Shown here: positions 3,756 through 37,249 of the stretch, piece after piece
Position numbering within the stretch: position 1 is the first letter of the stretch
How the letters are laid out: the number at the start of each line of letters is the position of its first letter
Virus record (IMG/VR): IMGVR_UViG_3300045973_000968
Location: 1-51,608 of that record
DNA: 51,608 nt
Source of the DNA: a virus
Direction: 5' to 3' (one strand)
Position numbers and translations under genes: made by a program
The notes under the pieces: model-generated
What the model was told of the DNA's origin: nothing
What the model saw: the letters and a program-made list of their open reading frames with translations, nothing else
Databases searched by the model: none

Positions 3756-4379
3756 TTAATATGTTTTCTTTCCGTCTGTATAATCTAATGGTTGATATTT
3801 TGATAATTCGCCATAATGATCTTCACAGACATTTGATTGAAAAGGCCAATTTTTTGCTGGTCTTCTATATTCTGGATATAATTCTCTTTCAAGTCTATAC
3901 CCGCCTCTTCCATTAAGACCTTTCCAAGTTTCCCAAACAACAGCTATGCTTTCATCTGGTTCAGCAACTTTATCAAAAGGTACACTAGTAACATATTCTG
4001 GTCCAAAAAATTTAGTTTTTATTTTAACTTGCTTTGGACCTATTGATTCAATAGTACCGACCTGCAAATCATAACCAACTAAAATATAAGTTTTATCACC
4101 TTTTTTAAGATTTGGTGGTGTTGTTTTTATTGTTGGAGATTTTTCTTCTAGAAATTCCATTTGAGCAGAATCGTCAAATACAATTTTCTTGCAAGATGAT
4201 TTTAGATATGAAAAGTTTATGCGTTCTCTTTCAGGATTTGGAGGATAACTATCAACTTGAGTACATTTTCTAATATGACCGTCGTCATTAAATATAAAGT
4301 AGTCACCTTTTTTTATGACATCATCAACTATTCTGAAAGGTTTTTCGTTGAATTTTGCCCAATTTTTAATTTTTCTCAT
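3756..4379 (-). CDS. Leader-tagged hypothetical protein, 207 aa
   Basis: The N terminus MRKIKNWAKFNEKPFRI carries the leader pattern with possible cleavage after Phe-Asn-Glu (residue 12). Next come two SH3/KOW-like strand modules (KKGDYFIFNDDGHIRKC; KKGDKTYILVGYDLQVGTI), followed by a Gly/Arg/Pro-rich tail with several Tyr and Trp residues. Such small barrels often bind proteins or RNA. The start overlaps the previous gene by 14 nt. The function is unknown. If packaged, it would be an internal head protein. Confidence 0.72.
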   Translation of the reverse strand: MRKIKNWAKFNEKPFRIVDDVIKKGDYFIFNDDGHIRKCTQVDSYPPNPERERINFSYLKSSCKKIVFDDSAQMEFLEEKSPTIKTTPPNLKKGDKTYILVGYDLQVGTIESIGPKQVKIKTKFFGPEYVTSVPFDKVAEPDESIAVVWETWKGLNGRGGYRLERELYPEYRRPAKNWPFQSNVCEDHYGELSKYQPLDYTDGKKTY

Positions 4380-4782
4380 TATTTACTATTTTATGTAATT
4401 CTTCTAAAAATTCAATAATTTCTTTTTCATTTTTACCAATTCTAACATCATCGTGAGTCATATCACAAACTTCTATTGACGTGCCTTTACCTTTTGCTGT
4501 AAAAACATTAAATATCAAAAATTTATATTTTAAGACCCACAATTTAGTTAAAAATTCTAATCTTAATCCTTTGTTATATGGACCAAACAATTCAGTCAAT
4601 TCAGAAATTAAATTTTTTAATAAACCTATATGACCTTCTCTATAAGACTTCATAGAATCTTTAATAAACCAATCTGAAATATCTCTATTATTCTGCACAG
4701 GCACAGAATCTAAAATTTTTTTACTATCAACTTTAGTTATTTCGGTTGAATAGTTTATTTCGTTTACTTTTTTTATTTTCAT
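4366..4782 (-). CDS. Leader-tagged hypothetical protein, 138 aa
   Basis: It begins MKIKKVNEINYSTE, sharing its first ten residues with the gene at 2015-2338 while the bodies do not match. The body is helical: a long helix (SYREGHIGLLKNLISELTEL), then a strand-helix part with KYKFLIFNVFTAKGKG and a C-terminal helix EIIEFLEELHKIVNN. Cleavage after VNE would leave INYSTEI. No function is recognised. It lies in a run of overlapping minus-strand genes. Confidence 0.74.
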   Translation of the reverse strand: MKIKKVNEINYSTEITKVDSKKILDSVPVQNNRDISDWFIKDSMKSYREGHIGLLKNLISELTELFGPYNKGLRLEFLTKLWVLKYKFLIFNVFTAKGKGTSIEVCDMTHDDVRIGKNEKEIIEFLEELHKIVNNEKN

Positions 4783-7815: not shown

Positions 7816-8154
7816 TTATTTTACTCCTGGTGCTGCTGCTGTGCCTGTTGGTGCTGTGCCTGTTGGTGTTGTTGTTGCTGGTGCTGGACCTGCTGGTGTA
7901 GTTGGTTTTGCTGGTGCTGTTACTGCTGCGGTAGTTTCTGCTGCACCAATATTTGCCATTTTTGCAAATGCTGAATCAATTTCACCTTTATATTTATCAT
8001 AAACTTTATTTATTTCGTCTGATCCTTTGATGTTTTTTGCTATTTTAACAACACCTTTCCACAGTCCTCTAAATATATTACCTAAAAAACCTTCATTTAA
8101 CTTTTCGTCTTTTTGAAGATTTAAAAACTCATTTTTTGTATATAAATTTTTCAT
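7816..8154 (-). CDS. Leader-tagged protein with amphipathic helix and Ala/Thr/Pro tail
   Basis: A 112-residue protein with the N terminus MKNLYTKNEFLNLQKDEKLNE; Leu-Asn-Glu at residues 19-21 exactly fits the T4 prohead protease rule. Cleavage would expose GFLGNIFRGLWKGVVKIAK, an amphipathic, cationic helix like membrane-active peptides. The C-terminal half is low-complexity (TAPAKPTTPAGPAPATTTPT). It is probably a small internal head protein or prohead core component. It is transcribed divergently from the structural gene at 8246. Confidence 0.74.
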   Translation of the reverse strand: MKNLYTKNEFLNLQKDEKLNEGFLGNIFRGLWKGVVKIAKNIKGSDEINKVYDKYKGEIDSAFAKMANIGAAETTAAVTAPAKPTTPAGPAPATTTPTGTAPTGTAAAPGVK

Positions 8155-9601: not shown

Positions 9602-10479
9602 TATTTACTAAAATGTTCAAATTTTACGGTGAGTTTATTATCTACAACTTTGATAGGATATTTAATTGGAGGTACTAATTTTATAGTTTTTGTTTCAAAC
9701 GGATTTAATTCATTATTTGTCACTAAATTATTAACCAATGTTAAAGTCGCATTTTCAAATCTATTATTTATAAATTCAATACATTCACTATCACTATTTC
9801 TAACTAAAACATCAAAATAATCTTGTAAATTATTAACATTTAATATATTAGCTTTAACATCATCATAAAAATATACAGTATCATACATTTCTTTTTTAAT
9901 TGGTAGAAAATGTGTATCTTCAATTGATAATCCTACTAAATGACTTAATAAAATTTTATTTTTATCATAAATAATTTTATCTTGATATCCAATTGTTCTT
10001 ATGGATTCAGCAACAAAATATATTTTATCTATTTCCAATCCATATTCTTTTAATTTTATTTGTAATTTATTGAGTAGATTTGCGTGTTTTTTTCTATCTG
10101 ACCTAGCAGTTAAAACTCCAAGTTCTATATTTTTACCAATTAAGTGCTTAACATTATTGAGTAATAATTGAACATCTTTTTTATTTAAAATATCATCATC
10201 AAAAAATTCACTATAAGATATTCCAATATTTCCAAATCTTATATTTTTGTTTTTTCTTTGAATTCTTTCCATCATATCTCTGGAAATAAAAAATCTCTCA
10301 TTATTATACTCTATTAAAATATCATCTTTAACATAGATTCCACTTTTAATTAAAGCAAATTCTATTGGAGATATTTTTAAAATAGGTATATTTGGCTTAT
10401 TTTTATCAATAATCCATATATCACTCTTTATATACCATAGAGTATTATCCAAATCAAAAAACGCTATTTCTTTACCCAT
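9598..10479 (-). CDS. HAD-superfamily phosphatase-like protein
   Basis: A 293-residue protein with the HAD motifs: FFDLDNTLW (nucleophile Asp9, general acid Asp11), GVLTARSDR (motif II, near residue 120) and YFYDDVKAN (motif IV, near 205). The substrate is unknown. A long insert between motifs I and II resembles cap insertions that set specificity. Phages use HAD enzymes for nucleotide or nucleic-acid-end dephosphorylation; that role is inference. It is cotranscribed with the Nudix gene 2 nt upstream, forming a phosphate-chemistry pair. Confidence 0.82.
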   Translation of the reverse strand: MGKEIAFFDLDNTLWYIKSDIWIIDKNKPNIPILKISPIEFALIKSGIYVKDDILIEYNNERFFISRDMMERIQRKNKNIRFGNIGISYSEFFDDDILNKKDVQLLLNNVKHLIGKNIELGVLTARSDRKKHANLLNKLQIKLKEYGLEIDKIYFVAESIRTIGYQDKIIYDKNKILLSHLVGLSIEDTHFLPIKKEMYDTVYFYDDVKANILNVNNLQDYFDVLVRNSDSECIEFINNRFENATLTLVNNLVTNNELNPFETKTIKLVPPIKYPIKVVDNKLTVKFEHFSKY

Positions 10480-10481
10480 AT

Positions 10482-10988
10482 TTAATCTAAGAATTCTAAT
10501 AAATCTAGTTGTTGTTTTTCAATAAGTGTTTTTGCATCTTCTTTTGAAAAAAAGCCAGCCTCAACTGTTTCACCTCTTAAAAAATTTCCTAAAATCATAT
10601 CATTAAACAATTTAACATTAATTTCATCTTTTTCTATATAAACTATATAACAGGTTAATTTTTTATTAAAACCAGCCTTAATATAATCAACAACAATTTT
10701 ATCTCCATCTCTTAAATGTTTCTTCTTCAACTTTATAGCAGACTCTTCTTTCAACTCACGCAAAGCAGTCTTCATTTTACTCATTTTCTCTTCGATATGA
10801 CCCTTTGGTATAGACCATTTTTTCATTTTACGCCTAAACTTTTTTGGTCTAACTAATAATATCTTATTATTATATATTAAAACAACCCCAGATAAATTGT
10901 GTAAATCACCAACATCAGGTTTAACTGACTTAACTTTAATAGGTTTAGCCATTTCATTTAAAAATTCATTAAATCTTAAATTATGCAT
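10482..10988 (-). CDS. Leader-tagged Nudix hydrolase with altered Nudix box
   Basis: A 168-residue protein that begins MHNLRFNEFLNEMAK; Leu-Asn-Glu at residues 10-12 fits a prohead cleavage site, so this enzyme may be packaged and injected. The Nudix box is GHIEEKMSKMKTALRELKEE (residues 63-82). The REUxEE core that binds metal is intact, but the first conserved Glu (GX5E) is Met69 and the final Gly is Ala. Nudix enzymes cleave nucleoside diphosphates linked to another moiety (ADP-ribose, NAD, capped RNA). The substrate cannot be told here. It overlaps the next gene by 8 nt. Confidence 0.85.
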   Translation of the reverse strand: MHNLRFNEFLNEMAKPIKVKSVKPDVGDLHNLSGVVLIYNNKILLVRPKKFRRKMKKWSIPKGHIEEKMSKMKTALRELKEESAIKLKKKHLRDGDKIVVDYIKAGFNKKLTCYIVYIEKDEINVKLFNDMILGNFLRGETVEAGFFSKEDAKTLIEKQQLDLLEFLD

Positions 10989-11199
10989 TTGTTGGTGTAT
11001 TATCTATTTCTGATATATCTGTTTCTAAACTATTTGCAATATTTACAGGTATATTTTTAATACCCTTAAAATCAATAAAGGCAATCTTTTGACCTTCTTT
11101 CCAATCAATACGATCAACAATATCACCAATACTAGGTAATTGATCTATTGTTATAATAAAGGATTCATTAAATTGTTTATAATTTTTAATTCTTCCCAT
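10981..11199 (-). CDS. Leader-tagged small protein, 72 aa
   Basis: MGRIKNYKQFNESFIITIDQ matches the leader pattern (Phe-Asn-Glu at residues 10-12). The remainder is strand-rich (GDIVDRIDWKEGQKIAFIDF) with an acidic end (DISEIDNTPTNA). It overlaps the Nudix gene start by 8 nt. AT-rich sequence with a TTATATATATAA box lies about 20-30 nt upstream. No family is recognised. Confidence 0.7.
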   Translation of the reverse strand: MGRIKNYKQFNESFIITIDQLPSIGDIVDRIDWKEGQKIAFIDFKGIKNIPVNIANSLETDISEIDNTPTNA

Positions 11200-11285
11200 A
11201 ATTGCGTTTCTTGTTATATATATAATTTTAAAATCAAAAAAAGTTTCTTATTTGACAAGTAAAGATATATATAAATTTTTAAAAT

Positions 11286-11313
11286 AAAAAATCCTATCTG
11301 CATAGGATTTTTT
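11286..11313. terminator. Bidirectional terminator hairpin
   Basis: A 12-bp stem AAAAAATCCTAT/ATAGGATTTTTT with a CTGC loop and T runs in both directions. It lies just after the stop of the small baseplate-region gene at 11317 on the minus strand. Confidence 0.85.
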
Positions 11314-11316
11314 ATT

Positions 11317-11565
11317 TTAAGGTTTATATTTATTCATATTACTCATCATTGAATTCATATTTGGTAAATTCTTTGAATAATCCGGTGTATTCGACTGACT
11401 CTTTTGAGATTCTTTTTGTTGTTTATTTTCTCTTTCTATTCTATCATTCAATCTTTTAACATACTCTTCATACTCCCACCATTGTAACATATTTATGTAA
11501 TATGGCGCAATATGATCCATATCCATAAATCCAAATTTATTATCCAAAATATTCGTCAAAGGCAT
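11317..11565 (-). CDS. Small baseplate/tail-assembly protein, 82 aa
   Basis: The product reads HIAPYYINMLQWWEYEEYV and then a charged helix and a Gln/Ser/Asn-rich tail. An aromatic helix of this sort, encoded directly after a gp26-like gene, is familiar in tail-assembly chaperone-like proteins. Its ATG lies 26 nt inside the end of the upstream gene in another frame, so it is translated by coupling. No convincing slippery site is seen in the overlap. The assignment rests on position and aromatic pattern and is inference. Confidence 0.65.
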   Translation of the reverse strand: MPLTNILDNKFGFMDMDHIAPYYINMLQWWEYEEYVKRLNDRIERENKQQKESQKSQSNTPDYSKNLPNMNSMMSNMNKYKP

Positions 11566-12484
11566 CTGGAATAACGAAAATATTTGAGGCTCCTGTGGGA
11601 AAGCTCATAGTAGTGTGGACCTCCAAACCACACGAAGGACAGTCATTTTTCATTTCTTTAATGCCGAACAACATAAGTCCAACAGCTTGATTTAAAACTT
11701 GAAAAGTCTTCATGTCTAATCTTTTAAATTCTTGTTCCTTAGCTTTTATACCTTCTTCAGTAATTTTAGTTCTATCATGTAATAAAAATGATGCAAGTTT
11801 TAAGAAAGCAACATTTGGATTTCTTTCACCTTGAATCTTATTTTTAATATCACCAAAGAAAATTTCTTGAATACCAATAGTAGGAGGTGCTAATTTATAA
11901 TCTACACCATTAATATTAAATACAAATACTCTTTCTTGTCTATCAAAATATTTAGCAAGTTTTTCAGGCATCTCATAATTAACAAAAGATTTCTTTACAG
12001 TTGGAGAACTAGTAGCTCTTAATTCCATCTTAAACTCATGACCACAATTTTCACAAGTCACATCCTTAGATAAATTTTTACCACCAGGAAACGTTAACTC
12101 TCTAATCATAAAAATCAAATATAACCTATCACCATCACGAACATCTTTATAAGACCCTTGAGATCCATTAGGATAAAAATATTTTACACTTGAACTTAAA
12201 ATTTGATTCATTTTTTCTGTTATATCTAAATAATTATTATCATCAACAACAGAATAAGCTTGAACCTCTTGTACTTTTGCTGATCGTATACTAATCTTAG
12301 TACCAGGTTTATAAAATAACCCACAAGGCAAATTTTCTAAAGGTATTACCATATATTCATTCGATGGAGCAGAATCCAAATACGATAAATCAACCTTTTG
12401 TACAGATTCTAAATTATCATCATCATTACTTATAAAATTTTGCTCCAAATACTTTAAAGCATCTTGTTCTTTCTTATCAGCCAT
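11540..12484 (-). CDS. 26: Baseplate hub-type protein, T4 gp26-like
   Basis: A 314-residue protein. The middle holds KDVRDGDRLYLIFMIRELTF, typical of the T4 gp26-like baseplate family. It is followed by a zinc-binding CENCGHEF and, 120 residues later, CPSCGLEVH, which together could bind one metal. The N-terminal 50 residues are acidic and flexible. It is longer than T4 gp26 (about 208 aa). An AT box precedes it, and it lies between the tube gene and the small partner gene. The family assignment is from motif memory. Confidence 0.7.
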   Translation of the reverse strand: MADKKEQDALKYLEQNFISNDDDNLESVQKVDLSYLDSAPSNEYMVIPLENLPCGLFYKPGTKISIRSAKVQEVQAYSVVDDNNYLDITEKMNQILSSSVKYFYPNGSQGSYKDVRDGDRLYLIFMIRELTFPGGKNLSKDVTCENCGHEFKMELRATSSPTVKKSFVNYEMPEKLAKYFDRQERVFVFNINGVDYKLAPPTIGIQEIFFGDIKNKIQGERNPNVAFLKLASFLLHDRTKITEEGIKAKEQEFKRLDMKTFQVLNQAVGLMLFGIKEMKNDCPSCGLEVHTTMSFPTGASNIFVIPDAFDEYFG

Positions 12485-12500
12485 AATACTATTATTATTT

Positions 12501-12516
12501 TTAAGTTATATATTAA
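12501..12516 (-). promoter_or_regulatory. Candidate late promoter AT box
   Basis: Minus-strand TTAATATATAACTTAA lies 16 nt before the gp26-like start and is followed by AAAATAAT. The sheath gene has the nearly identical TTAATATATACTTAAAAAATAAT, which supports a shared phage promoter. Confidence 0.58.
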
Positions 12517-12593
12517 AACAATTCTGTCCCATGAAAAATTAATTAAACATTAACTGTTTTTTGTTATATAATTCTAAAAAATATATAAATTTT

Positions 12594-12845
12594 ATGCTTA
12601 TTATCGAAATCATCTTGACAATCGTAGCATGGAGAAAAGGTTGGAATTGGTTAGCAATTATTCCTGTTGGAATAGCTTTTTGTATCGGACTTATTATCGG
12701 GGCATCTGGTACACCAATTGATAATCCAATGTCAGTTATTATCTGGGATATTTTAGCAATCATAGCACTTATTGTTATGGTAGCAGTAAATCCACCAGGT
12801 AAAAAAATTGAACCTACTAAACCTGTTGATCCTCCTACAACTTAA
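12594..12845 (+). CDS. Small membrane protein, 83 aa
   Basis: I chose the ATG at 12594 over an upstream TTG. The product has two or three hydrophobic segments (MLIIEIILTIVAW; WLAIIPVGIAFCIGLIIGAS; VIIWDILAIIALIVMVAV) and a Pro/Thr-rich tail (PVDPPTT). It is transcribed alone between two minus-strand tail genes and ends at a strong hairpin. A holin-like or superinfection role is possible but not shown; a two-TM protein near tail genes is the only evidence. Confidence 0.68.
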   Translation: MLIIEIILTIVAWRKGWNWLAIIPVGIAFCIGLIIGASGTPIDNPMSVIIWDILAIIALIVMVAVNPPGKKIEPTKPVDPPTT

Positions 12846-12847
12846 AA

Positions 12848-12876
12848 AAAATGCCAAAGTAAAACTTTGGCATTTT
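12848..12876. terminator. Bidirectional terminator hairpin
   Basis: A 13-bp stem AAAATGCCAAAGT/ACTTTGGCATTTT with a 3-nt loop lies between the convergent small membrane protein and tail tube genes and can end transcription from both sides. Confidence 0.88.
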
Positions 12877-13644: not shown

Positions 13645-15195
13645 ATGAACATAGAAAATTTATTAAAATTGAATGATAAATCAGGTAAAATATTTAAAGA
13701 AAGATATATAAAAAAATATTATATAACTATTTATAATGAAATTATAGATTATTGTATAGATAATAATTTAATAGAATTAAAATTTAAAGAAAAAATATAT
13801 CATTATTATTATAATATCCCATTTATGAAAATATGTACTTGTGGGCAATCATTAACATTTATAAGTTTTACGAATGGTTATAGTGCTCATTGTAGCTCAA
13901 AATGCTCAAAAAATGATGAAAAAGTTATACAAAAAATTAAAAACACATTATTAGAAAAATATGGAGTTGACAATTTACAAAAATCAAAAATCATAAGAGA
14001 AAAAACACACAAAACAAACTTATTAAAATTTGGAGTTGAACATCCTGCACAATCTTTGGATATTCAGAAAAAAATGAAAATGACTAATTTTATAAAATTA
14101 GGTGTTGAATATCCTGCACAAGATGTCTCAGTTCGTGAAAAATTTTACAAATCCGTCATAAATAAAAATTTATCAAAATATAATAATTTGATAAATTTAG
14201 ATTATAATAAAAAAATAATGATTTTTAAATGTGATTTTGGTGAAGATCATAATTTTGAAATTTCAATGGATCTTTTTAAAAACAGAAAAAGAACAAATAT
14301 AAAATTATGTACAATTTGCAACACTAAATATACATCTATGGCAGAAAAGAATTTTTTAGAATTATTCAATAACATAAAATCTGAAAATAATACAAGATCC
14401 ATAATAACTCCATTAGAATTAGATATTTATATTCCTGAATTAAAAATAGCTTTTGAATTTAATGGTTTATATTGGCATAATGAAACAAACAAAGAAAACA
14501 ATTATCATTTAAATAAAACTGAAGAATGTGAAAAACAAGGAATACAATTAATTCATATTTGGGAAGATGATTGGGTATATAAACAGAATATTATTAAATC
14601 TATGATATTGAATAAACTAAATCAAACACCTAATAAAATATTTGCACGTAAAACTATAATTAAAGAAATAACTGATAATAAATTAATTAGAGAATTTTTA
14701 GATAAAAATCATATTCAAGGTTTTGTTGGAAGTAAAATTAAAATAGGATTATTTTATGAAAGCGAATTAGTAAGTTTGATGACTTTTGGTAATCGACGTG
14801 TTGCTATGGGTAAAAAAACAACTAATAAAGATGAATATGAATTACTTAGGTTTTGCAATAAATTAAATACTAATGTTATAGGTGGAGCTAGTAAACTATT
14901 CAAATATTTCATTAATAATTATAAGCCTGAAGAGATAACTACTTATGCTGACAGATCAATAAGCAAAGGTAAATTATATGAAACGTTAGGATTTAAATTT
15001 GTTAGTAAGACAGAGCCAAATTATTATTATATTATAAATAATATAAGGCATCATAGATTTAATTTTAGAAAAGATAAATTAATTAAAGAAGGTTTTGATT
15101 CAAATAAAACAGAACATCAAATTATGATAGATCGTAAAATTTTTAGAATTTATGATTCTGGAAATCTAAAATATATTTATAAAATAGAAATTTAA
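13645..15195 (+). CDS. Vsr-like homing endonuclease
   Basis: A 516-residue protein. N-terminal Cys pairs (CTCGQS, CSSKC) suggest a zinc site. Three tandem repeats follow (KYGVDNLQKS, KFGVEHPAQS, KLGVEYPAQD), a DNA-binding repeat common in phage homing endonucleases. The nuclease core around 254-315 has LELDIYIPELKIAFEFNGLY and HIWEDDW, the Vsr/PD-(D/E)XK pattern. The C-terminal third has an acetyltransferase-like look. It is free-standing, on the opposite strand to its neighbours, and inserted between tail genes, as expected of a mobile gene. The end overlaps the peptidase gene by 4 nt. Confidence 0.82.
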   Translation: MNIENLLKLNDKSGKIFKERYIKKYYITIYNEIIDYCIDNNLIELKFKEKIYHYYYNIPFMKICTCGQSLTFISFTNGYSAHCSSKCSKNDEKVIQKIKNTLLEKYGVDNLQKSKIIREKTHKTNLLKFGVEHPAQSLDIQKKMKMTNFIKLGVEYPAQDVSVREKFYKSVINKNLSKYNNLINLDYNKKIMIFKCDFGEDHNFEISMDLFKNRKRTNIKLCTICNTKYTSMAEKNFLELFNNIKSENNTRSIITPLELDIYIPELKIAFEFNGLYWHNETNKENNYHLNKTEECEKQGIQLIHIWEDDWVYKQNIIKSMILNKLNQTPNKIFARKTIIKEITDNKLIREFLDKNHIQGFVGSKIKIGLFYESELVSLMTFGNRRVAMGKKTTNKDEYELLRFCNKLNTNVIGGASKLFKYFINNYKPEEITTYADRSISKGKLYETLGFKFVSKTEPNYYYIINNIRHHRFNFRKDKLIKEGFDSNKTEHQIMIDRKIFRIYDSGNLKYIYKIEI

Positions 15196-15929
15196 ACTTT
15201 TTTATATTTATTTTTCACGTCACTTTTTTTACCTAAAACACAATTTAAATAATTAATAAATATCTGTTCATTTTTTATTAAGTCATTTTTTCGTTCACCA
15301 ACATATGCAGTTTCATAATCTTTCATAATCAATCTAATTATATTTTCTGGAGTATTAGATTTTAATAAATATTTGATTTGATTTGTAAATGGAATATATT
15401 CAAGCCATACATTTGGATATTCATCACCATTAAAACAATCCTTTGGATTAAAAACATTTGAATTCGCATCAAAATTAGAACCAGTAATAAATTCATTTTT
15501 AATTTTAGGTGAATCTTTATAATCTCTCCAAGAAATAACGTGTCCAACTTCATGTATTATCCAACCTTCAACATCATTTTGCCATTGTGATTTTTCAAAT
15601 ACAATCATATTAGTTTTTCTCATAGACACACTTTGCCCAGTTTTACCAATCTTTTTTAATGTGCCATCTGGTATTATACCAACTATAATATTTTCTGGTT
15701 CGTAAAAATTTAACTCTATATCTTGTTCTTTCACTCCATAATTCAATGAAATAATATAATTTTTACATTTTAAAACTATTGCGGAATCATCTAATATTTT
15801 TTTACCTAATGTTTTACAATCAAAAAATAATTGTTTATCTTCTTTTTGATTATCAACAAATATTTCTGCTTGATTTTTGAAAAAATCACCAATTGTTGCT
15901 TCATTTATAAACTGATAGTAAGTTTTCAT
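15192..15929 (-). CDS. Zinc metallopeptidase with T4 IPIII-like packaging leader
   Basis: A 245-residue protein beginning MKTYYQFINEATIG. T4 internal protein IPIII begins MKTYQEFIAEA, so 8 of the first 11 positions match and Ile-Asn-Glu would be the cleavage site, leaving ATIGDFFKNQ. The HExxH motif (WIIHEVGHVISW, near residue 130) marks a zincin-type peptidase; a downstream acidic or His residue would be the third ligand. The target is unknown. A head-packaged, injected peptidase acting on host proteins is the natural inference. Confidence 0.82.
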   Translation of the reverse strand: MKTYYQFINEATIGDFFKNQAEIFVDNQKEDKQLFFDCKTLGKKILDDSAIVLKCKNYIISLNYGVKEQDIELNFYEPENIIVGIIPDGTLKKIGKTGQSVSMRKTNMIVFEKSQWQNDVEGWIIHEVGHVISWRDYKDSPKIKNEFITGSNFDANSNVFNPKDCFNGDEYPNVWLEYIPFTNQIKYLLKSNTPENIIRLIMKDYETAYVGERKNDLIKNEQIFINYLNCVLGKKSDVKNKYKKV

Positions 15930-16013
15930 ATATAATATTTATTTTAAACTTGTCTCATAATTTATTATATATAAAAATAAAAATACTAAACATAGTAAGT
16001 TTTCATATATAAT
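15915..16013. repeat. 22-bp direct repeat at the peptidase start
   Basis: ATAGTAAGTTTTCATATATAAT (22 bp) occurs at 15915-15936 and again at 15992-16013. On the minus strand both copies hold ATG AAA ACT TAC TAT, the first five codons of the peptidase gene. The outer copy stops after Met-Lys-Thr-Tyr-Tyr-Val. It looks like the remnant of a duplicated or recombined leader. Confidence 0.85.
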
Positions 16014-16071
16014 AGCATTGGTTTTTATTCTGAAAAAGCATACTACATACTAAAAATAATTAAATAAAAAT

Positions 16072-17916: not shown

Positions 17917-18435
17917 ATGAAAATACTTAAAATTTATGAAAATTCGCACGAAGATTTAGTTGAAGTTCTAGAAAATATTATTATAAAAGACAATAAAACA
18001 ATCAATGGATTTGAATTTTATCAAGATAATATGACTGGTGCTTTTGAATGGAGTAAAGATCCATATTATATGTTCTATGCAACACCATATTGGGAGCATG
18101 AAAATATTATACCTTTTGATGTATCAAATTTTGATGGTGATAATCTTGAAAGTTTATTTGAAAATGATATTAAATTACCTATTTTAAAAAATATGAATGA
18201 TGTTAATAAAGTTATTAAAATTTATTATTCGTTTATAAATAAAAAAACAAAATTATTAAATAAAAGGATTGAATTAAAACAGATTATAAAATTAACTGAA
18301 GATTTCACAACAAAGAACTATAATGTCGATCTTGATAATATTGATACAATTTCTGATCTATCAGTAAATAGAATATTAAAAGAAATAAACCTTAAATATT
18401 CGCAGATTTTACAAGCTCACAAATATAATTTTTAA
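17917..18435 (+). CDS. Leader-like hypothetical protein, 172 aa
   Basis: It begins MKILKIYENSHEDLVEVLEN; Ile-Tyr-Glu at residues 6-8 fits the leader pattern, making this one of the plus-strand candidates. The body has an aromatic region (YYMFYATPYWEHENIIPFDV) and Lys/Leu-rich helices. No family is recognised. An AT box TTTTAATATATATC stands just before the start. It ends at a hairpin shared with the sheath gene. Confidence 0.65.
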   Translation: MKILKIYENSHEDLVEVLENIIIKDNKTINGFEFYQDNMTGAFEWSKDPYYMFYATPYWEHENIIPFDVSNFDGDNLESLFENDIKLPILKNMNDVNKVIKIYYSFINKKTKLLNKRIELKQIIKLTEDFTTKNYNVDLDNIDTISDLSVNRILKEINLKYSQILQAHKYNF

Positions 18436-18488: not shown

Positions 18489-21400
18489 TTATTTGAATCC
18501 CATAGATTGAATATCGCCTTTCTTCATAATTGTAATGTTATTTACAATAATACCCATACCTTTGATGATTTCAACATAAGTATCAAGAACACCCATTTGA
18601 AGGTCAATAACGTAATCTGTGTTATTAGTTGCGTCACAAACATTCCAGAAATCGTAGAAAGCGTTGTTATCTAACATATCTTTACAGATTTTGTCAGCAC
18701 GATATTTGATTTCTGCTCTGATTTCAGGTGTATTGAAACTCCATTGGTATTTAAGAAGCATATCGTATAGTCTATTTTCAAGTTCAATAAGTACTTCTCT
18801 TGAATGTAATAAACTAAGTGAACTATATGGATAAACTTGTGCAGATGCATCATCGTTGATACAATATCCATTGTTTATTTTGTAAACAATTGGGTTTGCG
18901 TTCATACTATGTAAGTATTCAAGATCGGTATTAGTGAAGTCCATTTCAGTTTTAGTGATATTTTGAACTCTACCATTAGTAATACCTGCGCAAATTGTCC
19001 AAGGCAACATACCAGCAACATTAGATGTAAATTTTTGCATATAAGTTGTTGCAGCATAAGATGAAGGTGGAACCCATTTAGGAATACCGTTATCGTATAT
19101 TCTAATATATGGGAAGAAATAACCTACACAACTTCTACCATCAATGTCACCATGTTGTTGAGCAAATTGGTAATAAAAATCTGGGTTTTTAGAATCATCA
19201 GCACCGGCAGCAACATATTGAATATCAAGAACACCGTTAGCATCAACGAATGATGGGTTGGTTGATTCTCTGAAAATTTTAGCAGATGGCATATTAATAA
19301 ATCCAAGTGCATTAAGTTTCATACCGCAAAGGTCCGCAAGTTGTTGTTTTGAACCAAATCCATCAACTGGTGTAAGTCCAAGTCCGAATGAATCAACAAG
19401 GTATCTCCAAGATATTTTATTTTTATCTGCTAATGCTTTTGCAAGATTAGTATCTTTATTAATAATATCAAGTATTGCATTTTGTCTTGTATCTGTGCCA
19501 TCAGGTATAGAATCGTTATGTACAACAAATGGAGATATTTTCAAAGCTTTATATTCGTCTACATATACTTCAATTGAAGGATAAGTAAATGTTTGATAAT
19601 CGGTTGAACCTGTTGAATCAAAATTAGCTATGCTAATAGGAGCGTCAGTATAAAGAAGTTTAGCATTAACGTCTGTTGGGTCGTTTTTAACATTAATAAT
19701 TCTAGTTAATTTTCTAGGAACAGAACCTTCTAAATATCCAGGCCCACTAGGTGCTTCGTAATAAGCTGCATCGTAATAAGCTGCTAAGAAACTACCTTTA
19801 GTTATTTCTGAATATCTATTTTTATCAACTTTAATTTGTTGGCAAGTAGTAAGGTCGGCACCAATCCAATCTAACATTTCAACAGATTGTTCCCAATTTG
19901 ATCTATTTGAATGAACGATTAATTCTTGATTATATAATGTTTGGTCAGTCCAATCACCAAATGGTACTGAATATAATACATCAGGATTTAAAGATTGTAA
20001 GAATCTAACATTAATTAAATTATTAGAATCTAAGAACATTTTCAAATAAATTTTATTAGAAGTTCCACTAACATTGTTAACATAGAAATAGTCATAATTA
20101 TTTATAACACCATTATAATAATCTTGGTATAATTGTGAATATGTTGCAGCGATACCAACTGAAGGTGTATCAAGTAAATAATTATATCTAGTTTTAAGTG
20201 CGTTAGTGTCGCCACCAGAAACATGAAGTAAAAATTCATTATCTACAAAATACATTACAAATTTATCATAAGTTGCGCCAGTTAAATAGCATTTTTTTGG
20301 ATCAGGTACATAAAGTTTAATACTTGCGTTAGCTGTAGTTGTAGCATCAATTAAAAGTACTGATAAAACAGGTACTTTATCACCTTGAGTAAAATCACCA
20401 GTTGAACCAGATTGAACTAATAAACTAGCACTTGAAAGACCATCAAACATATCATTAAATACTTGTTGAATTCTAAGATATTCGTAATCATTAAATTTAT
20501 TAGTTGTACTACCTGATGTTCCTTGGAATTCAATTTTCATAAATGTTCCCAAAGTATCAATATCATCAGTTATTTTAGTTCCATAGCCTAATTTTGAACC
20601 AATAGGAAGATAATCTACGTCATCAACTGTAACAGAGGTATAAACTAATGAATAAGTTGCACCAGTTTTTTGATGATAAACATAACCTAATATAATTGTA
20701 CTAGCTAAACTAAAATCATAAATTGGTTTTTCAGCGCCTGTAAATGTAGTTGATGTTGTACCATATAAAACATTAACAGTATTATCATTTGTAAGATATA
20801 ATACATCATATCTTGATCCTACTGCATATGTAATACTACTTAATGACACGGTTGTATTTGTAAATCCAGTTACGAGTGTGCCACCTATAACATAATAAGG
20901 ATTTGCTCCGGTTACAAAATTCACAAAAGTATTTCCAGTTGTATCATAAGTTATTCCACGAACATGACCATTTGTATATACACCAGTTCTATCTTCTACA
21001 CTGAAAAAATCTGTATCGTAGCTATCTAAATTATTAGTGATAACATTATTGCTTGAGTCAAGATATTTTTGTGAATATACAAGTTCTTCTTTAAGAGTAA
21101 CATCGTATGACATAAATTTTATGTTAGAAATATCTTGTCCAACTATAACATCACCAATAATATCAAGGTTACCAAGTTTGAAATCTGCTTCTAACAATTG
21201 ATTTTCGTCATAAGTACAGAATAAACCAGTTTTATCAGTATTATTATTGATAACATTTTTAATATACATATCTCTGTTATTTAAGTCTTTGAAATATGGT
21301 ATTAAAGAACAATCATATTTACCAAGAATGGTAACAGTTCTTTCATTAAGGAAGTTATTAACTTGACCTTTCATTAAACCACTCTTATTGAAGTATTTAG

Positions 21401-22100
21401 AGAATGTAGTATCATTACTTAATGTTTTGTAATCTGACCAATTACCAGCAACAACTATTACAGAAACTAGATAATCTGACATCCATTCTCTATAATCAAT
21501 ATATGCAGGAACTTTGGTTCTATCACCATACCATTCTTCTGCGGTTACGTCAAATCCTGTAATACTTGATTTAAACATAAATACAGAGATATCTTTATCT
21601 GACATATTTGTAATATGAAATAATCTTTTGGTATCTTGCACACCAAAGTTATTTGATTTAACGACATTCAAAAATGCGTCAGAATCTCTTTCCCAGAATG
21701 CTTGACGATTGTAAAATGATTCATATGCGGATCTCTTAACATCAGCATTTAAGTATTGTGATGATACAGAGATTGATTGCCAGTCTACCTTGTCTCTGTT
21801 TGGATTTGTTGCTAAAAGATTCAATGCCCAAACTGGTCCACTTTTCAACATTTGTTTAACTGTTTTGTGGAAGAATGAACCTTTATTTTCTAATCTTCTA
21901 TCATCATCACCAAAAATTGAAGTAAAGTCATTAGGATTTGTAACATAAATTGGAGCATTAAATGGTCCTTTTTTAGAGAAACCTGGAACCAAATTTATAA
22001 GAACTTCTTGAATTGGAAGTGTAATGATACTAGAATCAATTTCTTCGATGAAGATACCTGGTCTTTTGTATTTTCCGAAATCTGCGTCTTTGATTGGCAT
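18489..22100 (-). CDS. 18: Tail sheath protein (T4 gp18-like), very large
   Basis: A 1203-residue protein. The N terminus RPGIFIEEIDSS, with LVPGFSKKGPFNAPIYVTNP and FTSIFGD, is the classic contractile-sheath opening. The C terminus carries the conserved sheath core (VAGMLPWTICAGITNGRV; SLSLLHSREVLIELENRLYD; TPEIRAEIKYRADKICKDML). Sheath subunits surround the tube and contract at infection. T4 gp18 is 659 aa, so about 500 extra residues, mostly Ser/Thr/Gly/Asp-rich strands in the middle, form outward insertions. An AT box precedes it. Confidence 0.92.
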   Translation of the reverse strand: MPIKDADFGKYKRPGIFIEEIDSSIITLPIQEVLINLVPGFSKKGPFNAPIYVTNPNDFTSIFGDDDRRLENKGSFFHKTVKQMLKSGPVWALNLLATNPNRDKVDWQSISVSSQYLNADVKRSAYESFYNRQAFWERDSDAFLNVVKSNNFGVQDTKRLFHITNMSDKDISVFMFKSSITGFDVTAEEWYGDRTKVPAYIDYREWMSDYLVSVIVVAGNWSDYKTLSNDTTFSKYFNKSGLMKGQVNNFLNERTVTILGKYDCSLIPYFKDLNNRDMYIKNVINNNTDKTGLFCTYDENQLLEADFKLGNLDIIGDVIVGQDISNIKFMSYDVTLKEELVYSQKYLDSSNNVITNNLDSYDTDFFSVEDRTGVYTNGHVRGITYDTTGNTFVNFVTGANPYYVIGGTLVTGFTNTTVSLSSITYAVGSRYDVLYLTNDNTVNVLYGTTSTTFTGAEKPIYDFSLASTIILGYVYHQKTGATYSLVYTSVTVDDVDYLPIGSKLGYGTKITDDIDTLGTFMKIEFQGTSGSTTNKFNDYEYLRIQQVFNDMFDGLSSASLLVQSGSTGDFTQGDKVPVLSVLLIDATTTANASIKLYVPDPKKCYLTGATYDKFVMYFVDNEFLLHVSGGDTNALKTRYNYLLDTPSVGIAATYSQLYQDYYNGVINNYDYFYVNNVSGTSNKIYLKMFLDSNNLINVRFLQSLNPDVLYSVPFGDWTDQTLYNQELIVHSNRSNWEQSVEMLDWIGADLTTCQQIKVDKNRYSEITKGSFLAAYYDAAYYEAPSGPGYLEGSVPRKLTRIINVKNDPTDVNAKLLYTDAPISIANFDSTGSTDYQTFTYPSIEVYVDEYKALKISPFVVHNDSIPDGTDTRQNAILDIINKDTNLAKALADKNKISWRYLVDSFGLGLTPVDGFGSKQQLADLCGMKLNALGFINMPSAKIFRESTNPSFVDANGVLDIQYVAAGADDSKNPDFYYQFAQQHGDIDGRSCVGYFFPYIRIYDNGIPKWVPPSSYAATTYMQKFTSNVAGMLPWTICAGITNGRVQNITKTEMDFTNTDLEYLHSMNANPIVYKINNGYCINDDASAQVYPYSSLSLLHSREVLIELENRLYDMLLKYQWSFNTPEIRAEIKYRADKICKDMLDNNAFYDFWNVCDATNNTDYVIDLQMGVLDTYVEIIKGMGIIVNNITIMKKGDIQSMGFK

Positions 22101-25367: not shown

Positions 25368-25994
25368 ATGGAGAAAGATAAAATTAATGAACTTGAAATA
25401 CAGTTCGAAGAGCGTACTGGGGTTAATTTTAAAATCTTCTATAAGAACTACAAAACTAAACTAATGTGGTATATTGCAAAATATACTAAGGATCAAGAAG
25501 TTGCAGAAGATCATGTAGAAGATGCGTTTATTCAAGCTTTACTTAATATAAGTACTTATAAGCGACCTGATGAAGGTGGAGCACAAGTAAATACTTGGGT
25601 ATACAAAATTGCTGAAAACATTGTTAAAAAGGCACATAAAGATGGTTGTCGTATTCCAACAAATTCTTTGGATAAAGAAATGGCGGAAAACTTTAATCTA
25701 TCTAATTTAATACCGTATGACGATGGAAAAAGAAACAGTGAGGAATACAATGTTTTTGTAAAAAAGGCAAATTTGATTAAGGAAACTATTTATAACTTAC
25801 CTGAAAAGGATTCTAAGTATAAAAAAGTTTTAATTATGAGAGAACTTGAAGGAATGGCTTATAAAGAAATTTCAGAAGAGTTGAACATTAATCTTTCTAC
25901 TATTAAATCACAGATTAAAAAAGGTAGAAATATTATTAAGAAAAAAGTCTTGAAAAAATTTCAAGACATAGATCACAATGGAGTAGACGAATGA
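25368..25994 (+). CDS. ECF-type RNA polymerase sigma factor
   Basis: A 208-residue protein. Region 2 (about residues 20-95) has TKDQEVAEDHVEDAFIQALL and VNTWVYKIAENIVKKAHKDG, matching the -10-recognition part of ECF sigma factors. Region 4 (about 140-195) is LPEKDSKYKKVLIMRELEGM then YKEISEELNINLSTIKSQIK, a helix-turn-helix for the -35 element. It should bind host core polymerase and direct it to phage promoters, possibly the AT boxes before tail genes (inference). Its stop overlaps the next gene by 4 nt (ATGA). Confidence 0.88.
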   Translation: MEKDKINELEIQFEERTGVNFKIFYKNYKTKLMWYIAKYTKDQEVAEDHVEDAFIQALLNISTYKRPDEGGAQVNTWVYKIAENIVKKAHKDGCRIPTNSLDKEMAENFNLSNLIPYDDGKRNSEEYNVFVKKANLIKETIYNLPEKDSKYKKVLIMRELEGMAYKEISEELNINLSTIKSQIKKGRNIIKKKVLKKFQDIDHNGVDE

Positions 25995-27417: not shown

Positions 27418-29172
27418 ATGTTAGATTTTTATAAAAATGTAATAAGTGATAAAATTCACGAAAAGCTAACTGAAGCTATCGTAGCTATGATGGCGACTGG
27501 TAATTTACCATATTATGGTGAATTTGCATTGTTTATCAATTTTTTTGAAGCAAAAAACAATCCATATATCAAAACAGCAGGTGTTAATGTTACATCCTCT
27601 GGTATGAATTTTTATTGGTCTCGTAAATTTATTGATAGTTTAGCTCAGCCACAAGTTAATTTTCTTTTAATTCACGAAGAATTTCACATTCTTTTTGATC
27701 ACATCAAACGAAGTGTTGGTTATAATCAAAGTTCTGCAAATATTGTGCAAGATATGATTATTAATCAAGTAATTCTTGATGAAATAATGAAAAAACAAGG
27801 TTTAGGTGGAGGCCCAGATCCTTTTATTGAAATACCTAAGGATATGTTCAAGAAAAATAGTGCGCTTTTTATTCCTAAAGAATATAAAGGTGAAGCAATA
27901 TTTGAAGATTTATACGAATGGTATGTCGCAAAGAAACGTGAATGGCAAGAAAAGAACAAAGAAGCTGTCTCAAAAATGAGAAAAGAATCTAATAAATGTG
28001 AAAAGTGTGGCGCACCTATGGAACGTAAAGATACTGATCAAGATGATCAAGATGATGGTGAAAATGAAGGCGACAAGAACGAAAGTAACAAAAAAGGTCA
28101 AGCAAAAAAGCCAGGTGACAAAGGTCAAGAAAAAGGTGATCAAGGTAAAGGTAAAGGCAAAGAAGATTCTGATGAAGATGGTGAAGGAGATGGCGACGAA
28201 AATGAAGGTAAAGGTAAGCAACCAGGCGACAAAGGAAATAAAGGTGGAAACCAACCAGGTGATGGCGGAGATCAAAGTGATGGTCAAGGCGGTCAAGGTT
28301 CTGATAGTGATGGTGACGAAGATGACGATGGTGAAGGTCAAGGTCAAAAATGTCCAAACTGTGGACATGAGCACAATAACAATAAATCCCGCCAAGGTAA
28401 AAAGGACACATCTGGAAATGACAGATATGGTAAATATGGTAAAAATGATGCAGAAATGTATTCACTTGAAACCATCTTTGAAGGTGAAGAAAGAGAAGAA
28501 CAAAACACTCTTGATACTCATTTAAGTGATGATATTCCTCAAGAACTTAAAAGGGAAATTGTTGAAAGTGTTATGACCAGACTTAAAAATCGTGGATTAA
28601 CTTCTGGTGATGTTGAAGCAATTATTAATAAACTTCGTAAAACTAAAAAAGATTACTTAAGAGAAATTAAAAGAGCTATGAGTAATCACGTTTTTGGTAG
28701 CAAGAAAGAAAAAACAATTGTTAGACCAAATCGTAGAGGTATTTCTGGCTTAAAAGGTCATAAGAAATATAAAAATGAAATAAATGTTCTTCTTGACACA
28801 TCTGGATCTATGGGTGGAGAATTTGAAAAAGTTCTTTCATATATTTTCCAAAATGATATTCAAATGAACCTTATTCAATGTGATGCCAGAGTTCAGAAAG
28901 TTCTTAAAGTTAAAGATAAAAAGCAACTTGAAAAAATGAAAATTCATGGTCTTGGTGGTACATCATTAATGCCAGGTATCGATTTTATGACCGACAAAAA
29001 GAACAAAATCTATATGTATAATACTGTTATTCTTACTGACGGTTGGACAGATTCTTTGGACTTTAAGAATGTCAAAACAAAAACTTTGATATTATCAACT
29101 GCCTGTAAATGTCCTGTATCATATGATAATGGTCGAGTTAAACAAATTGAAAACATAGGTAAGCAGGATTAA
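27418..29172 (+). CDS. VWA-like protein with putative metallopeptidase domain (DUF2201 type)
   Basis: A 584-residue protein. The N-terminal domain has LLIHEEFHILFDH (HEEFH, residues 86-90) and DMIINQ, the DUF2201 N-terminal peptidase-like pattern. Residues about 190-340 are an extremely low-complexity Gly/Asp/Lys/Gln linker flanked by CEKCGAP and CPNCGHEH, which together may form one zinc site. The C-terminal VWA-like domain has LLDTSGSMGG (MIDAS) and GLGGTSLMPG. In bacteria such proteins work with MoxR AAA+ ATPases; one is encoded at 38464. Confidence 0.85.
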   Translation: MLDFYKNVISDKIHEKLTEAIVAMMATGNLPYYGEFALFINFFEAKNNPYIKTAGVNVTSSGMNFYWSRKFIDSLAQPQVNFLLIHEEFHILFDHIKRSVGYNQSSANIVQDMIINQVILDEIMKKQGLGGGPDPFIEIPKDMFKKNSALFIPKEYKGEAIFEDLYEWYVAKKREWQEKNKEAVSKMRKESNKCEKCGAPMERKDTDQDDQDDGENEGDKNESNKKGQAKKPGDKGQEKGDQGKGKGKEDSDEDGEGDGDENEGKGKQPGDKGNKGGNQPGDGGDQSDGQGGQGSDSDGDEDDDGEGQGQKCPNCGHEHNNNKSRQGKKDTSGNDRYGKYGKNDAEMYSLETIFEGEEREEQNTLDTHLSDDIPQELKREIVESVMTRLKNRGLTSGDVEAIINKLRKTKKDYLREIKRAMSNHVFGSKKEKTIVRPNRRGISGLKGHKKYKNEINVLLDTSGSMGGEFEKVLSYIFQNDIQMNLIQCDARVQKVLKVKDKKQLEKMKIHGLGGTSLMPGIDFMTDKKNKIYMYNTVILTDGWTDSLDFKNVKTKTLILSTACKCPVSYDNGRVKQIENIGKQD

Positions 29173-29194: not shown

Positions 29195-29971
29195 ATGATA
29201 AAATTTTTAATAGGTAAGAAAAAATTTCAAAAAATATTTGAATACTTTAATGATATCACTGTAAAATGTATGAACTTTGGCGGTAGTTCAGATTTTAATA
29301 TAAGTGGTGAATTAAATGTATTCAAATTTATTAAAAACAAATTTTCTGAAGAACCAATTTTAATATTTGATGTAGGTGCTCATACTGGAAATTATTCGAC
29401 TGCATTATATAATTTTTTTAAAGAAAAAGCAACTATACACGCATTTGAACCAGCAAAAAAAACTTATATTCAATTATTAATACATTTAAATGATAATAAG
29501 CAAATCATTGCAAATAACTTTGGTTTTAGTGATTCTGAAAAATCTCAAATACTTTATAGTAATGAAGATTGTTCTGGTCTAGCTTCAGTATATAAAAGAA
29601 AATTAGATCATCTTGGTTGTTATTTAAATAAACTTGAAAAAGTAAAATTATCAACTATTGATATTTATTGTAAAACAAATAATATTAATAGAATACATTT
29701 CTTGAAATTAGATATTGAAGGTCACGAATTAAATGCTTTAAATGGTGCAACTCAAATGCTTAATGAGAAAAAAATTGATGTAATTCAATTTGAATTTGGT
29801 GGTTGTAATATTGACTCAAGAACATTTTTCAGAGATTTTTTTTACTTATTAAAAAAGAACTACAAGATATATAGAATTTTAAAGGATGGACTACTTGAAA
29901 TTTCAATTTATAAAGAACAATATGAAATATTTGACACTATTAATTATTTAGCAGTAAAAACATTTGGGTAA
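29195..29971 (+). CDS. FkbM-family methyltransferase
   Basis: A 258-residue protein with the SAM-binding motif IFDVGAHTGNYS (near residue 52), HAFEPAKKTY, the inserted loop LSTIDIYCKTNN and FLKLDIEGHELNALNGA, which is the FkbM signature. FkbM enzymes O-methylate hydroxyls, often on glycans. Acting with the TibC-like glycosyltransferase encoded at 40 kb, it may modify surface glycans of host or virion (inference). Confidence 0.87.
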   Translation: MIKFLIGKKKFQKIFEYFNDITVKCMNFGGSSDFNISGELNVFKFIKNKFSEEPILIFDVGAHTGNYSTALYNFFKEKATIHAFEPAKKTYIQLLIHLNDNKQIIANNFGFSDSEKSQILYSNEDCSGLASVYKRKLDHLGCYLNKLEKVKLSTIDIYCKTNNINRIHFLKLDIEGHELNALNGATQMLNEKKIDVIQFEFGGCNIDSRTFFRDFFYLLKKNYKIYRILKDGLLEISIYKEQYEIFDTINYLAVKTFG

Positions 29972-29994
29972 TTCAAAAAATTTAGTTATATTTG
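29963..29994 (+). promoter_or_regulatory. Consensus Bacteroidota promoter (TTTG-N20-TATATTTG)
   Basis: TTTG at 29963-29966 and TATATTTG at 29987-29994 with a 20-nt spacer. It overlaps the end of the FkbM gene and leaves a very short leader before the ATG at 30013. Confidence 0.78.
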
Positions 29995-30012
29995 CAACAT
30001 AAAAATGAAAAA

Positions 30013-30264
30013 ATGAATATAGATATTGAAAAGTTGATGGAAATAATTCTAAATGATGCCGATAAACGAGCAGAAAATGCTGGATATGGTGGAAGTCATT
30101 CGGATGGTGGGGCATCAAGATTAAGAGATCAAGTTAAATTTTATAAAGCTGGAATAAATGGAACAATTCCAACAGAATGGAATGATTATTTAACTGAATA
30201 TGTACGGAACACAGATCCTGAATTTTCAGAATATGTTAGACTAAAAGAAAAATTTGAAAAATGA
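30013..30264 (+). CDS. Small hypothetical protein, 83 aa
   Basis: The start at 30013 (MNIDIEKLMEIILND) follows from the promoter at 29987-29994, which would exclude the TTG further up. The body has NAGYGGSHSDGGASRLRDQV and an acidic/charged C terminus (FSEYVRLKEKFEK). The stop overlaps the next gene start by 4 nt (ATGA). No family is recognised. Confidence 0.68.
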   Translation: MNIDIEKLMEIILNDADKRAENAGYGGSHSDGGASRLRDQVKFYKAGINGTIPTEWNDYLTEYVRNTDPEFSEYVRLKEKFEK

Positions 30265-31751
30265 GCAAAAAACAAAGCCTACTTAAATTATTTTCCCAAG
30301 ATAGGGATTATAACTATCACGTTATAAAGTTAGATGATCAAACAGGTCACCTAATATATTTAATGAGAAATGGATCTGAATTAATTTCAGATTCTTTAGA
30401 ATTTGCACCAACATTAATTGTTGAAGAACTTATTATTGAATGCGGTATAATTATGGAAAAAATTGCTCCAGCAATTTTCTTCACAGAAGAAGATAACACA
30501 GGAAAATTAAAATATGAACTTGGCGAAAAAATTTCAGAAAATTCCGATTTTTCAGCATTTATAGAATCTATTAAAGATGAATATCGTGCTCTGGAAATTA
30601 GAGACACATTATTATATAAGAAAGATCCTGAAGCTTATAAAGAAGCTAAGAAAAAAGAAAAGGAAGAACATCAGAAAGAGCTTTGGGACGAAATGATGAA
30701 CCAACATTCAGAAAAAATAAATCAAAGAGAAAAATATTTACTCGAATATAATAATGATTTTGTGAAATTACTTGCTGATCAATTTGAAGGTGAGATTGAA
30801 TTTGAAAAAAGAAATTTTAATCTAAATTCAGAATTTGAACATCTTGTCAGCAACCTAATTGATGCTGAAACTTGGATTAAAATTGAAGAAAAACCATTTA
30901 TTTGCAAAATTGAAATTGTATCTCTAGAAAAAGATAGAGTTAATGTATATTTAACAGACAATAATGAATATTCATATACTGCAACTTTAAGATTTGATAA
31001 AATATATCTAATTACAGAAAATGTAGAAAGACTAGATAATGAAAAACCTGAGAAATTACCAGATTACAAAGTATTATCAATCATATATAGCGAAGAGTTA
31101 TCATTATTTAATAAAATAGCATCTGAAGATAAAGAATGGGAATTTAAGAATGATGCAGATAGATTTGAAGCTACTATTGATTATTTAGTTCCTATTTTCA
31201 AAATTAAAAAAGATGAAAAAGAAAAGGAATATGTTGATAAATATAATAAAGAGCATCCTGATGAAGAAGATTCTGAAGAACTTGTGGATTATATGAAAGA
31301 GCATCTTAAAGATAATGATAGCGATTGTAAATGTGGTGGTAGTTGTGATGATGGTGACTGTGAATGTGATGGAAACTGTGGTTGTGGTAGCTCAGATAAT
31401 AAATCGAAAAAGAAAAAGAAAAAGAAAAACAAGAAAAAAAATAAGAAACTTGCAAATCCAAGCGATTGGTACTTTGATGTATGGGTTTCTAAAGATAAAT
31501 ATGATCCTTCTTGTATCGCATTATCAAAAGAGTGTAATGGTTATTTAGATGATCAACTTGGTTCTCATAATTTATCACAAAATGTTATTGATGCTTTGAA
31601 TAAAGCAGGTATATTTGGTGACAGTGAAATGATGGAAGCAGTTTGGGAAGTTAATGATTATGAATCAAAAACAAAAGAAGACATCATAAAAAGTATGGAG
31701 AATGAAGGATTTATTTATAGTAAAGGAATGCTTGGTGATTTTGGAATGTAA
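30261..31751 (+). CDS. Large hypothetical protein with metallothionein-like Cys cluster
   Basis: A 496-residue protein. The first 350 residues are acidic and helical without a recognised fold. Near residue 355-372 lies CKCGGSCDDGDCECDGNCGC, with eight Cys in 20 residues, followed directly by a Lys run (KKKKKKKNKKKNKK). The last 100 residues are globular (SDWYFDVWVSKDKYDPSCIA; NVIDALNKAGIFGDSEMMEA). The cluster could bind several metal ions; the poly-Lys could bind nucleic acid or membrane. It is coupled to the upstream gene by ATGA overlap. Confidence 0.72.
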   Translation: MSKKQSLLKLFSQDRDYNYHVIKLDDQTGHLIYLMRNGSELISDSLEFAPTLIVEELIIECGIIMEKIAPAIFFTEEDNTGKLKYELGEKISENSDFSAFIESIKDEYRALEIRDTLLYKKDPEAYKEAKKKEKEEHQKELWDEMMNQHSEKINQREKYLLEYNNDFVKLLADQFEGEIEFEKRNFNLNSEFEHLVSNLIDAETWIKIEEKPFICKIEIVSLEKDRVNVYLTDNNEYSYTATLRFDKIYLITENVERLDNEKPEKLPDYKVLSIIYSEELSLFNKIASEDKEWEFKNDADRFEATIDYLVPIFKIKKDEKEKEYVDKYNKEHPDEEDSEELVDYMKEHLKDNDSDCKCGGSCDDGDCECDGNCGCGSSDNKSKKKKKKKNKKKNKKLANPSDWYFDVWVSKDKYDPSCIALSKECNGYLDDQLGSHNLSQNVIDALNKAGIFGDSEMMEAVWEVNDYESKTKEDIIKSMENEGFIYSKGMLGDFGM

Positions 31752-37246: not shown

Positions 37247-37249
37247 AAT

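Follow-up and report, generated by a model that had tools for sequence, protein, structure and literature searches.

Alt of phage T4 is a head-packaged, leader-cleaved ADP-ribosyltransferase. For the T4 internal protein IPIII, the first 10 residues are what packaging requires, and mutational mapping assigned targeting mainly to residues 4 and 7 and processing to residues 8 and 10, with the protease gp21 cutting after L/I-x-E (PMC9026906). A review of the T4 head has already proposed the capsid-targeting sequence (CTS) as a general route for T4-like phages, with varied cargo (PMC9026906). Packaged zincin domains have likewise been proposed for polyvalent proteins of P1 and N4 (PMC5512222), and in SPN3US and phiKZ, which eject head proteins, many head proteins have N-terminal propeptides cut after Glu, with paralogues sharing identical N-termini (PMC5694885).

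The gene described here resembles those for T4 IPII and IPIII in encoding a 10-residue leader with Y4, F7, I8 and E10, a predicted gp21-type cut after Glu10 and a small P1' residue. Unlike them, its cargo is a zincin-type enzyme, a candidate packaged protein, rather than a small basic or anti-restriction protein, and its phage is one of a group of huge phages in which such leaders number in the tens. As proposed below, it would resemble Alt in being an enzyme loaded into the head beforehand and acting on host proteins without delay, although its enzyme class and sequence are unrelated. With the metallopeptidase domains of the polyvalent proteins (P1 DdrB, N4 virion RNA polymerase) it shares an HExxH zincin motif with a downstream Glu and a proposed association with packaging or ejection (PMC5512222), but it stands alone as a protein of 245 aa, begins with a T4-type leader, matches no sequence family and shows weak structural similarity. 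Several SPN3US/phiKZ propeptides exceed 100 residues and phiKZ cuts at S/A-x-E (PMC5694885), whereas the present leaders span about 10-20 residues and end in [ILVM]xE. A sequence-only reading of this DNA had remarked that T4 internal proteins are not proteases, which holds for T4; head-packaged zincin domains, however, have already been proposed elsewhere (PMC5512222).

The leader-bearing gene and its product

The window, which is the whole 51,608-base IMG/VR record, is probably a genome fragment. Judged by its tail sheath (45.7% identity over 100% to that of LR756501, a 735-kb uncultured huge phage), the source is a T4-related huge phage close to LR756501, with more distant sheath kin in 460-640-kb huge phages, Lak, Tenacibaculum PTm1, Sphingomonas PAU and Flavobacterium MaF61. 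The window also carries unusual phage cargo, an OmpA-domain protein (33829-35706) beside genes for an ABC-transporter permease and ATPase (36476-38071; SaoP/NtrB-like permease). The features of the locus are as follows.

15192..15929, minus strand: gene for a leader-bearing, probable zincin-type metallopeptidase, 245 aa (ORF, sister gene, family alignment, AlphaFold2 model)
15900..15929, minus strand: leader MKTYYQFINE, residues 1-10 (IPIII targeting and processing residues, enrichment, codon conservation)
15540..15554, minus strand: HEVGH zinc-binding/catalytic motif, residues 126-130, inside GWxxHExGH (H, E, G and H invariant in 7 family members)
15399..15401, minus strand: Glu177 of YP(N)xxxE, predicted third zinc ligand (invariant in the family alignment; in model helix 174-189, after HExxH)
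15915..15937, minus strand: 23-bp sequence TATTATATATGAAAACTTACTAT across the start codon, copy 1 (exact repeat)
15992..16014, minus strand: upstream exact copy 2 of the 23-bp start-region sequence (exact repeat)
18489..22100, minus strand: tail sheath (identity to LR756501)

The ORF starts with ATG at 15929, runs down to 15192 and encodes a protein beginning MKTYYQFINEATIGDFF. The frame stays open for only 3 codons upstream of the ATG, and a sister gene at 73% identity in the 111-kb record IMGVR_UViG_3300028859_000013 (G001) begins MKTYIQFINEAS, so the start codon is secure. Within the first 11 codons the two genes differ by four synonymous changes and one non-synonymous change, which indicates that the peptide rather than the DNA is conserved. 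The ORF, leader and HExxH motif described in the sequence-only reading are all present, on the minus strand. The 23-bp duplicate is possibly a scar of leader-cassette duplication or recombination; over the matching stretch, no such repeat of at least 13 bp was reported for the sister gene.

Comparison of MKTYYQFINEA with the IPIII leader MKTYQEFIAEA confirmed the earlier claim of an 8/11 match that includes the Ile-x-Glu site (identities at M1, K2, T3, Y4, F7, I8, E10 and A11). None of the other N-termini in the window reaches 5/11, and when residues 2-25 of each window protein were shuffled (300 rounds), matches of at least 6/11 were expected 0.010 times and at least 7/11 never occurred. This control, together with the secure start and the conserved sister leader, indicates that the match exceeds chance. 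Y4 and F7 supply aromatics at the IPIII targeting positions, I8-N9-E10 forms the gp21 processing motif L/I-x-E at residues 8-10, and the differences from IPIII (positions 5, 6 and 9) spare every residue named as functional. We therefore regard a T4-type capsid-targeting and processing signature as strongly supported by sequence, given the four retained IPIII residues, the genome-wide excess of the leader core and the recurrence of the same [ILMV]NE site on capsid and protease precursors (both below). Cleavage is predicted after Glu10, leaving a mature N terminus of ATIGDFF.

The body of the protein is a single ORF with no other recognised domain, and it is not a multidomain polyvalent protein. 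It had no match in Pfam, PHROG, NCBIfam or PDB sequences, its family had none in PADLOC, tblastn in phage records gave only chance matches and a genome-contig scan revealed no relatives. Pattern scans of 2.9 million viral contigs recovered three near-identical loci, followed by L142 (E=1e-22 to a two-sequence profile), L124, L127 and L143 (E=2e-6 to 9e-4), and L129, which was placed in the family by motif only and not by E-value; three further pattern matches, L152, L153 and L154, were attributed to chance and set aside. Among 15 relatives besides G001, the family profile found nothing convincing (one match, E=0.013, in LR745206), and the genomes lacking a convincing copy include LR756501, LR756502, LR756504, Lak-B2, PAU and T4. 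L129 keeps the leader core (LYKSFILE), while the leader of the distant members L124, L127 and L143 is a different one, MKHLKLYENF, and that of L142 differs again.

The family alignment contains 16 invariant columns, including G122, W123, H126, E127, G129, H130, R135, Y171, P172, E177 and Q184, and the H, E, G and H of HExGH are invariant in seven sequences. An AlphaFold2 model built on this alignment (pTM 0.61; pLDDT 58.9 on average and 70-90 over much of the core past residue 80) placed HExxH in helix 123-139 and Glu177 in helix 174-189. Its best VIA-align rows were zincins (BepA, Z 5.6; the Zn-dependent peptidase 3c37, Z 5.0; lethal factor; IrrE/PprI; BlaR1), with all scores, at Z 5.6 or below, in the range where chance arrangements occur; the best matches in the viral structure library (BFVD) were polyvalent proteins. 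Conserved ligands, with weak structural support, thus make a zincin-type zinc peptidase of no named family probable. The sequence-only reading, which had called the protein a zinc peptidase with a T4-type packaging leader, stands as to the leader (IPIII residues, core excess), and the enzyme is probable (HExxH, Glu177). The zincin-family HMM search it had suggested led to no named family, and the suggested structure prediction gave the low-confidence model with HExxH and Glu177 each in a helix.

Leaders across huge phages and T4

We counted the core [FYW]xx[FYW][ILVM]xE by position in called ORFs, taking the expectation from the rest of the proteins. The complete genome of LR756501 had 52 cores at N-termini versus 3.05 expected (p=2.9e-38), with further excesses in G001 (10 versus 0.38), G005 (8 versus 1.06), the first 400 kb of LR756502 (19 versus 1.95) and the first 200 kb of LR756500 (9 versus 0.92). 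T4 itself had 4 versus 0.73 expected (p=0.011). The excess was absent in PTm1, MaF61, PAU, G004 and G006, and the Lak-B2 part-genome had no core (0 versus 0.49 expected). As a control for circularity, N-terminal hydrophobic-Asn-Glu sites were taken without requiring aromatics: in LR756501, aromatics occupied both P7 and P4 at 28/79 N-terminal versus 5/400 internal sites. Nine hydrophobic-N-E sites lie near N-termini in the window (12.8-fold enriched, p=6e-7), where the reversed motif showed no significant enrichment.

A looser pattern gave 14 matches in T4, including ipII, ipIII, gp24, gp2 (the DNA-end protector) and a protein that we take from its sequence to be Alt. About 5 of the 14, roughly one in three, are known head or packaged proteins, which is a fair guide to the trust owed to a single loose match; a DNA-ligase-like N terminus, MILKILNEIAS, also fits. 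Such leaders occur on about 5% of LR756501 genes by the core and on 15% by the loose pattern, and from these sequence comparisons the window leader is one of many related leaders in its phage group. Others in the window are listed here.

3756..4379, minus strand: protein with leader MRKIKNWAKFNEK (window N-terminal hydrophobic-N-E excess)
4366..4782, minus strand: protein with leader MKIKKVNEI, orthologue MKVDKFNET (hydrophobic-N-E excess, orthologue comparison)
10482..10988, minus strand: NUDIX protein with leader-like N terminus MHNLRFNEFLNEMA (PF00293, E=2.6e-10, residues 34-156)
10981..11199, minus strand: 72-aa protein with leader MGRIKNYKQFNES, orthologue MSRINTYRQFLNEL (leaders differ by an indel and keep [FL]NE)
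17917..18435, plus strand: protein with second leader type MKILKIYEN, orthologue MKLKRFNES (orthologue comparison)

In a set of 52 leader proteins, some matched PPK2, an aldolase or methyltransferases, and a radical-SAM protein of LR756501 is also leader-bearing. Since leaders occur on radical-SAM and NUDIX proteins, a leader alone is no proof of packaging; either the head, a very large one, takes up these proteins as well, or the leader signals something broader. Other leader-bearing HExxH proteins were found in LR756501 (264308, 268430 and 733394) and G005 (29723). HExxH-type motifs were over-represented among leader genes (6/17, p=0.027; stricter motif, 6/11, p=0.002), with small numbers and one doubtful motif among the six. 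The G005 protein is a DUF2201 metallopeptidase/VWA protein (29723-31117) with leader MIKKYNNFINES, and the window copy (27418-29172) is without a leader, a contrast that suggests a tagged paralogue.

In L142 (5369-6610), two adjacent genes encode the same 25 N-terminal residues, MRAKFVYENLIQALDEAEKIDPEKL, followed by different bodies (HEIGH versus HEAIH), the HEIGH protein being a relative of the window metallopeptidase; one leader cassette seems to have been attached to two metallopeptidase-like proteins. Short, diverse proteins in tandem arrays (L002, 6210-8881 and 11175-11426; G001, 10253-12868 and 53850-55822) have a common N-terminal leader, MKYLKxFE or MKYIKTFE, a C-terminal KFN[IL]-stop tail and unrelated middles. 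The tail is kept where no gene follows closely and so is not simply the next gene's start signal; we know of no such leader-and-tail pattern from T4. A further G001 gene (55826-56521) encodes a protein with leader MKYLKKFEG and a LYHVTDKKNIKNILKNGLIP stretch that matches Tpt1/KptA below threshold (E=0.027) and is possibly ADP-ribosyltransferase-like, comparable to T4 Alt. Within the window, protein MKNLYTKNEFLNLQKDEKLNEGF (7816-8154) weakly matches a phiKZ internal head protein (PF12699, E=0.048).

Head genes, processing sites and a promoter motif in relatives

In relatives, a gp21-like protease (PF03420) adjoins a gp23-like capsid protein (PF07068); the PF03420 match is over the cut-off in PTm1 and below it, although beside the capsid gene, in LR756501 and LR756502. 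No gp21-like protease was found in the window, a fragment that may not include the head region. Across 45 related loci, the capsid propeptide seems to end in H-x-[LMIV][NS]E, followed by N (nine distinct site sequences), and protease precursors have 25 distinct N-termini with [LIV][NSKQ]E and then a hypervariable stretch, the invariance of Glu being partly by construction as the search pattern demanded it. From these cut sites, which we infer from sequence, the INE-A boundary of the window leader and the [ILMV]NE at the capsid and protease propeptide boundary would be the same processing site. Both kinds of precursor are without the aromatic pair of the leaders, a division that is expected if the aromatics serve targeting and xNE serves cutting. 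Small proteins (MNKNIEKWSSIMEALGVTDKVKIVKMSEYADNF...) in the window (46687-47133) and G001 (98176-98427) resemble the relatives' capsid propeptide (MKKWAPILDALRVVDDEKRAWMSEYAEMHQMNE).

A 33-bp motif, TAGAAAAAA-N17-ATATATA, is highly conserved upstream of capsid and protease genes (L073-L117) and may be a late promoter. A sigma-70-like factor is encoded in the window (25368-25994). Leader genes of LR756501 under the loose definition had higher scores for this motif (p about 1e-3, with 0/200 shuffled matrices as good), but this was not clear under the strict definition and no such motif was found upstream of the 15192-15929 gene (rank 37 of 67); promoter support for leader genes was therefore dropped.

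Proposed head delivery and competing explanations

We consider it rather probable that the zincin-type metallopeptidase is packaged in the head, ejected and active in the host. Leader residues 1-10 would dock the enzyme on the prohead core by way of the aromatics at positions 4 and 7, and a gp21-like prohead protease of the phage would cut after Glu10, two steps that are strongly suggested by sequence. The mature enzyme (ATIGDFF...) would then stay in the head among the DNA, enter the host at infection and cleave one or more host or, less likely, phage proteins; virion residence, ejection, proteolytic activity and target are extrapolations. The main ground for caution is the occurrence of leaders on radical-SAM and NUDIX proteins; the T4 yield of about 5 in 14 loose matches, the different leaders of distant family members, the lack of a promoter-like motif before the gene, the low pLDDT and the weak structural matches also count against the proposal, and virion proteomics for this phage or a close relative was looked for and not found.

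The leader could instead be a general N-terminal tag of the phage group with another role, for instance in starting translation or in docking to a structure that the phage builds, on an enzyme that works in the cytoplasm during infection. The fraction of tagged LR756501 genes, which include the radical-SAM gene, the tagged NUDIX protein of the window and the frequent pairing of the second leader type, MKYLKxFE, with a C-terminal KFN[IL] tail all fit such a tag. The conserved positions, however, are exactly those of T4 targeting and processing, the hydrophobic-N-E site is common to capsid and protease precursors that are without aromatics, and synonymous codon variation indicates selection on the peptide, so we hold this explanation to be unlikely, if a serious competitor. 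The protease might also be packaged or core-associated but work in head maturation, as a second prohead protease or trimming enzyme, rather than on the host. For the zincin domains of packaged polyvalent proteins, a role in protein processing, either ahead of packaging or after it, has been proposed (PMC5512222), but the relatives already have a gp21-like protease and the window gene is rare and accessory, with no convincing copy in the 15 relatives searched besides G001, and is therefore not a core assembly factor; we rank this role low. Chance similarity on an ordinary cytoplasmic phage protein ranks low as well and is highly improbable, for although the motif is short and loose patterns give many false positives (as with the T4 ligase-like N terminus), no shuffled window N-terminus reached 7/11, the sister leader is conserved through synonymous change and LR756501 has its 52 versus 3 excess.

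If head delivery is correct, it may extend well beyond one enzyme. About 50 further proteins of the closest huge phage bear this tag, and phages of this kind may thus send a full complement of finished proteins into the host along with their DNA. We give roughly even weight to the broader proposal that in a T4-related huge-phage subgroup some 20-50 or more proteins per genome, several unrelated types of zinc metallopeptidase among them, have the T4-type leader, and that the virions of this subgroup deliver a large pre-made enzyme set, proteases included, with the DNA. The literature searched contained no description of CTS leaders used genome-wide by huge phages, which does not prove that none exists; as far as that literature shows, both a stand-alone zincin with a T4-type leader and genome-scale leader use in huge phages are new. 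If true, a four-position signature would pick out, from metagenomic sequence alone, the head-loaded proteins that reach the host first, so that early effectors, candidate proteases included, could be ranked among hundreds of huge-phage proteins of unknown function. It would then also become directly testable whether the capsid-targeting sequence of T4 serves widely as a delivery code or is a T-even special case.
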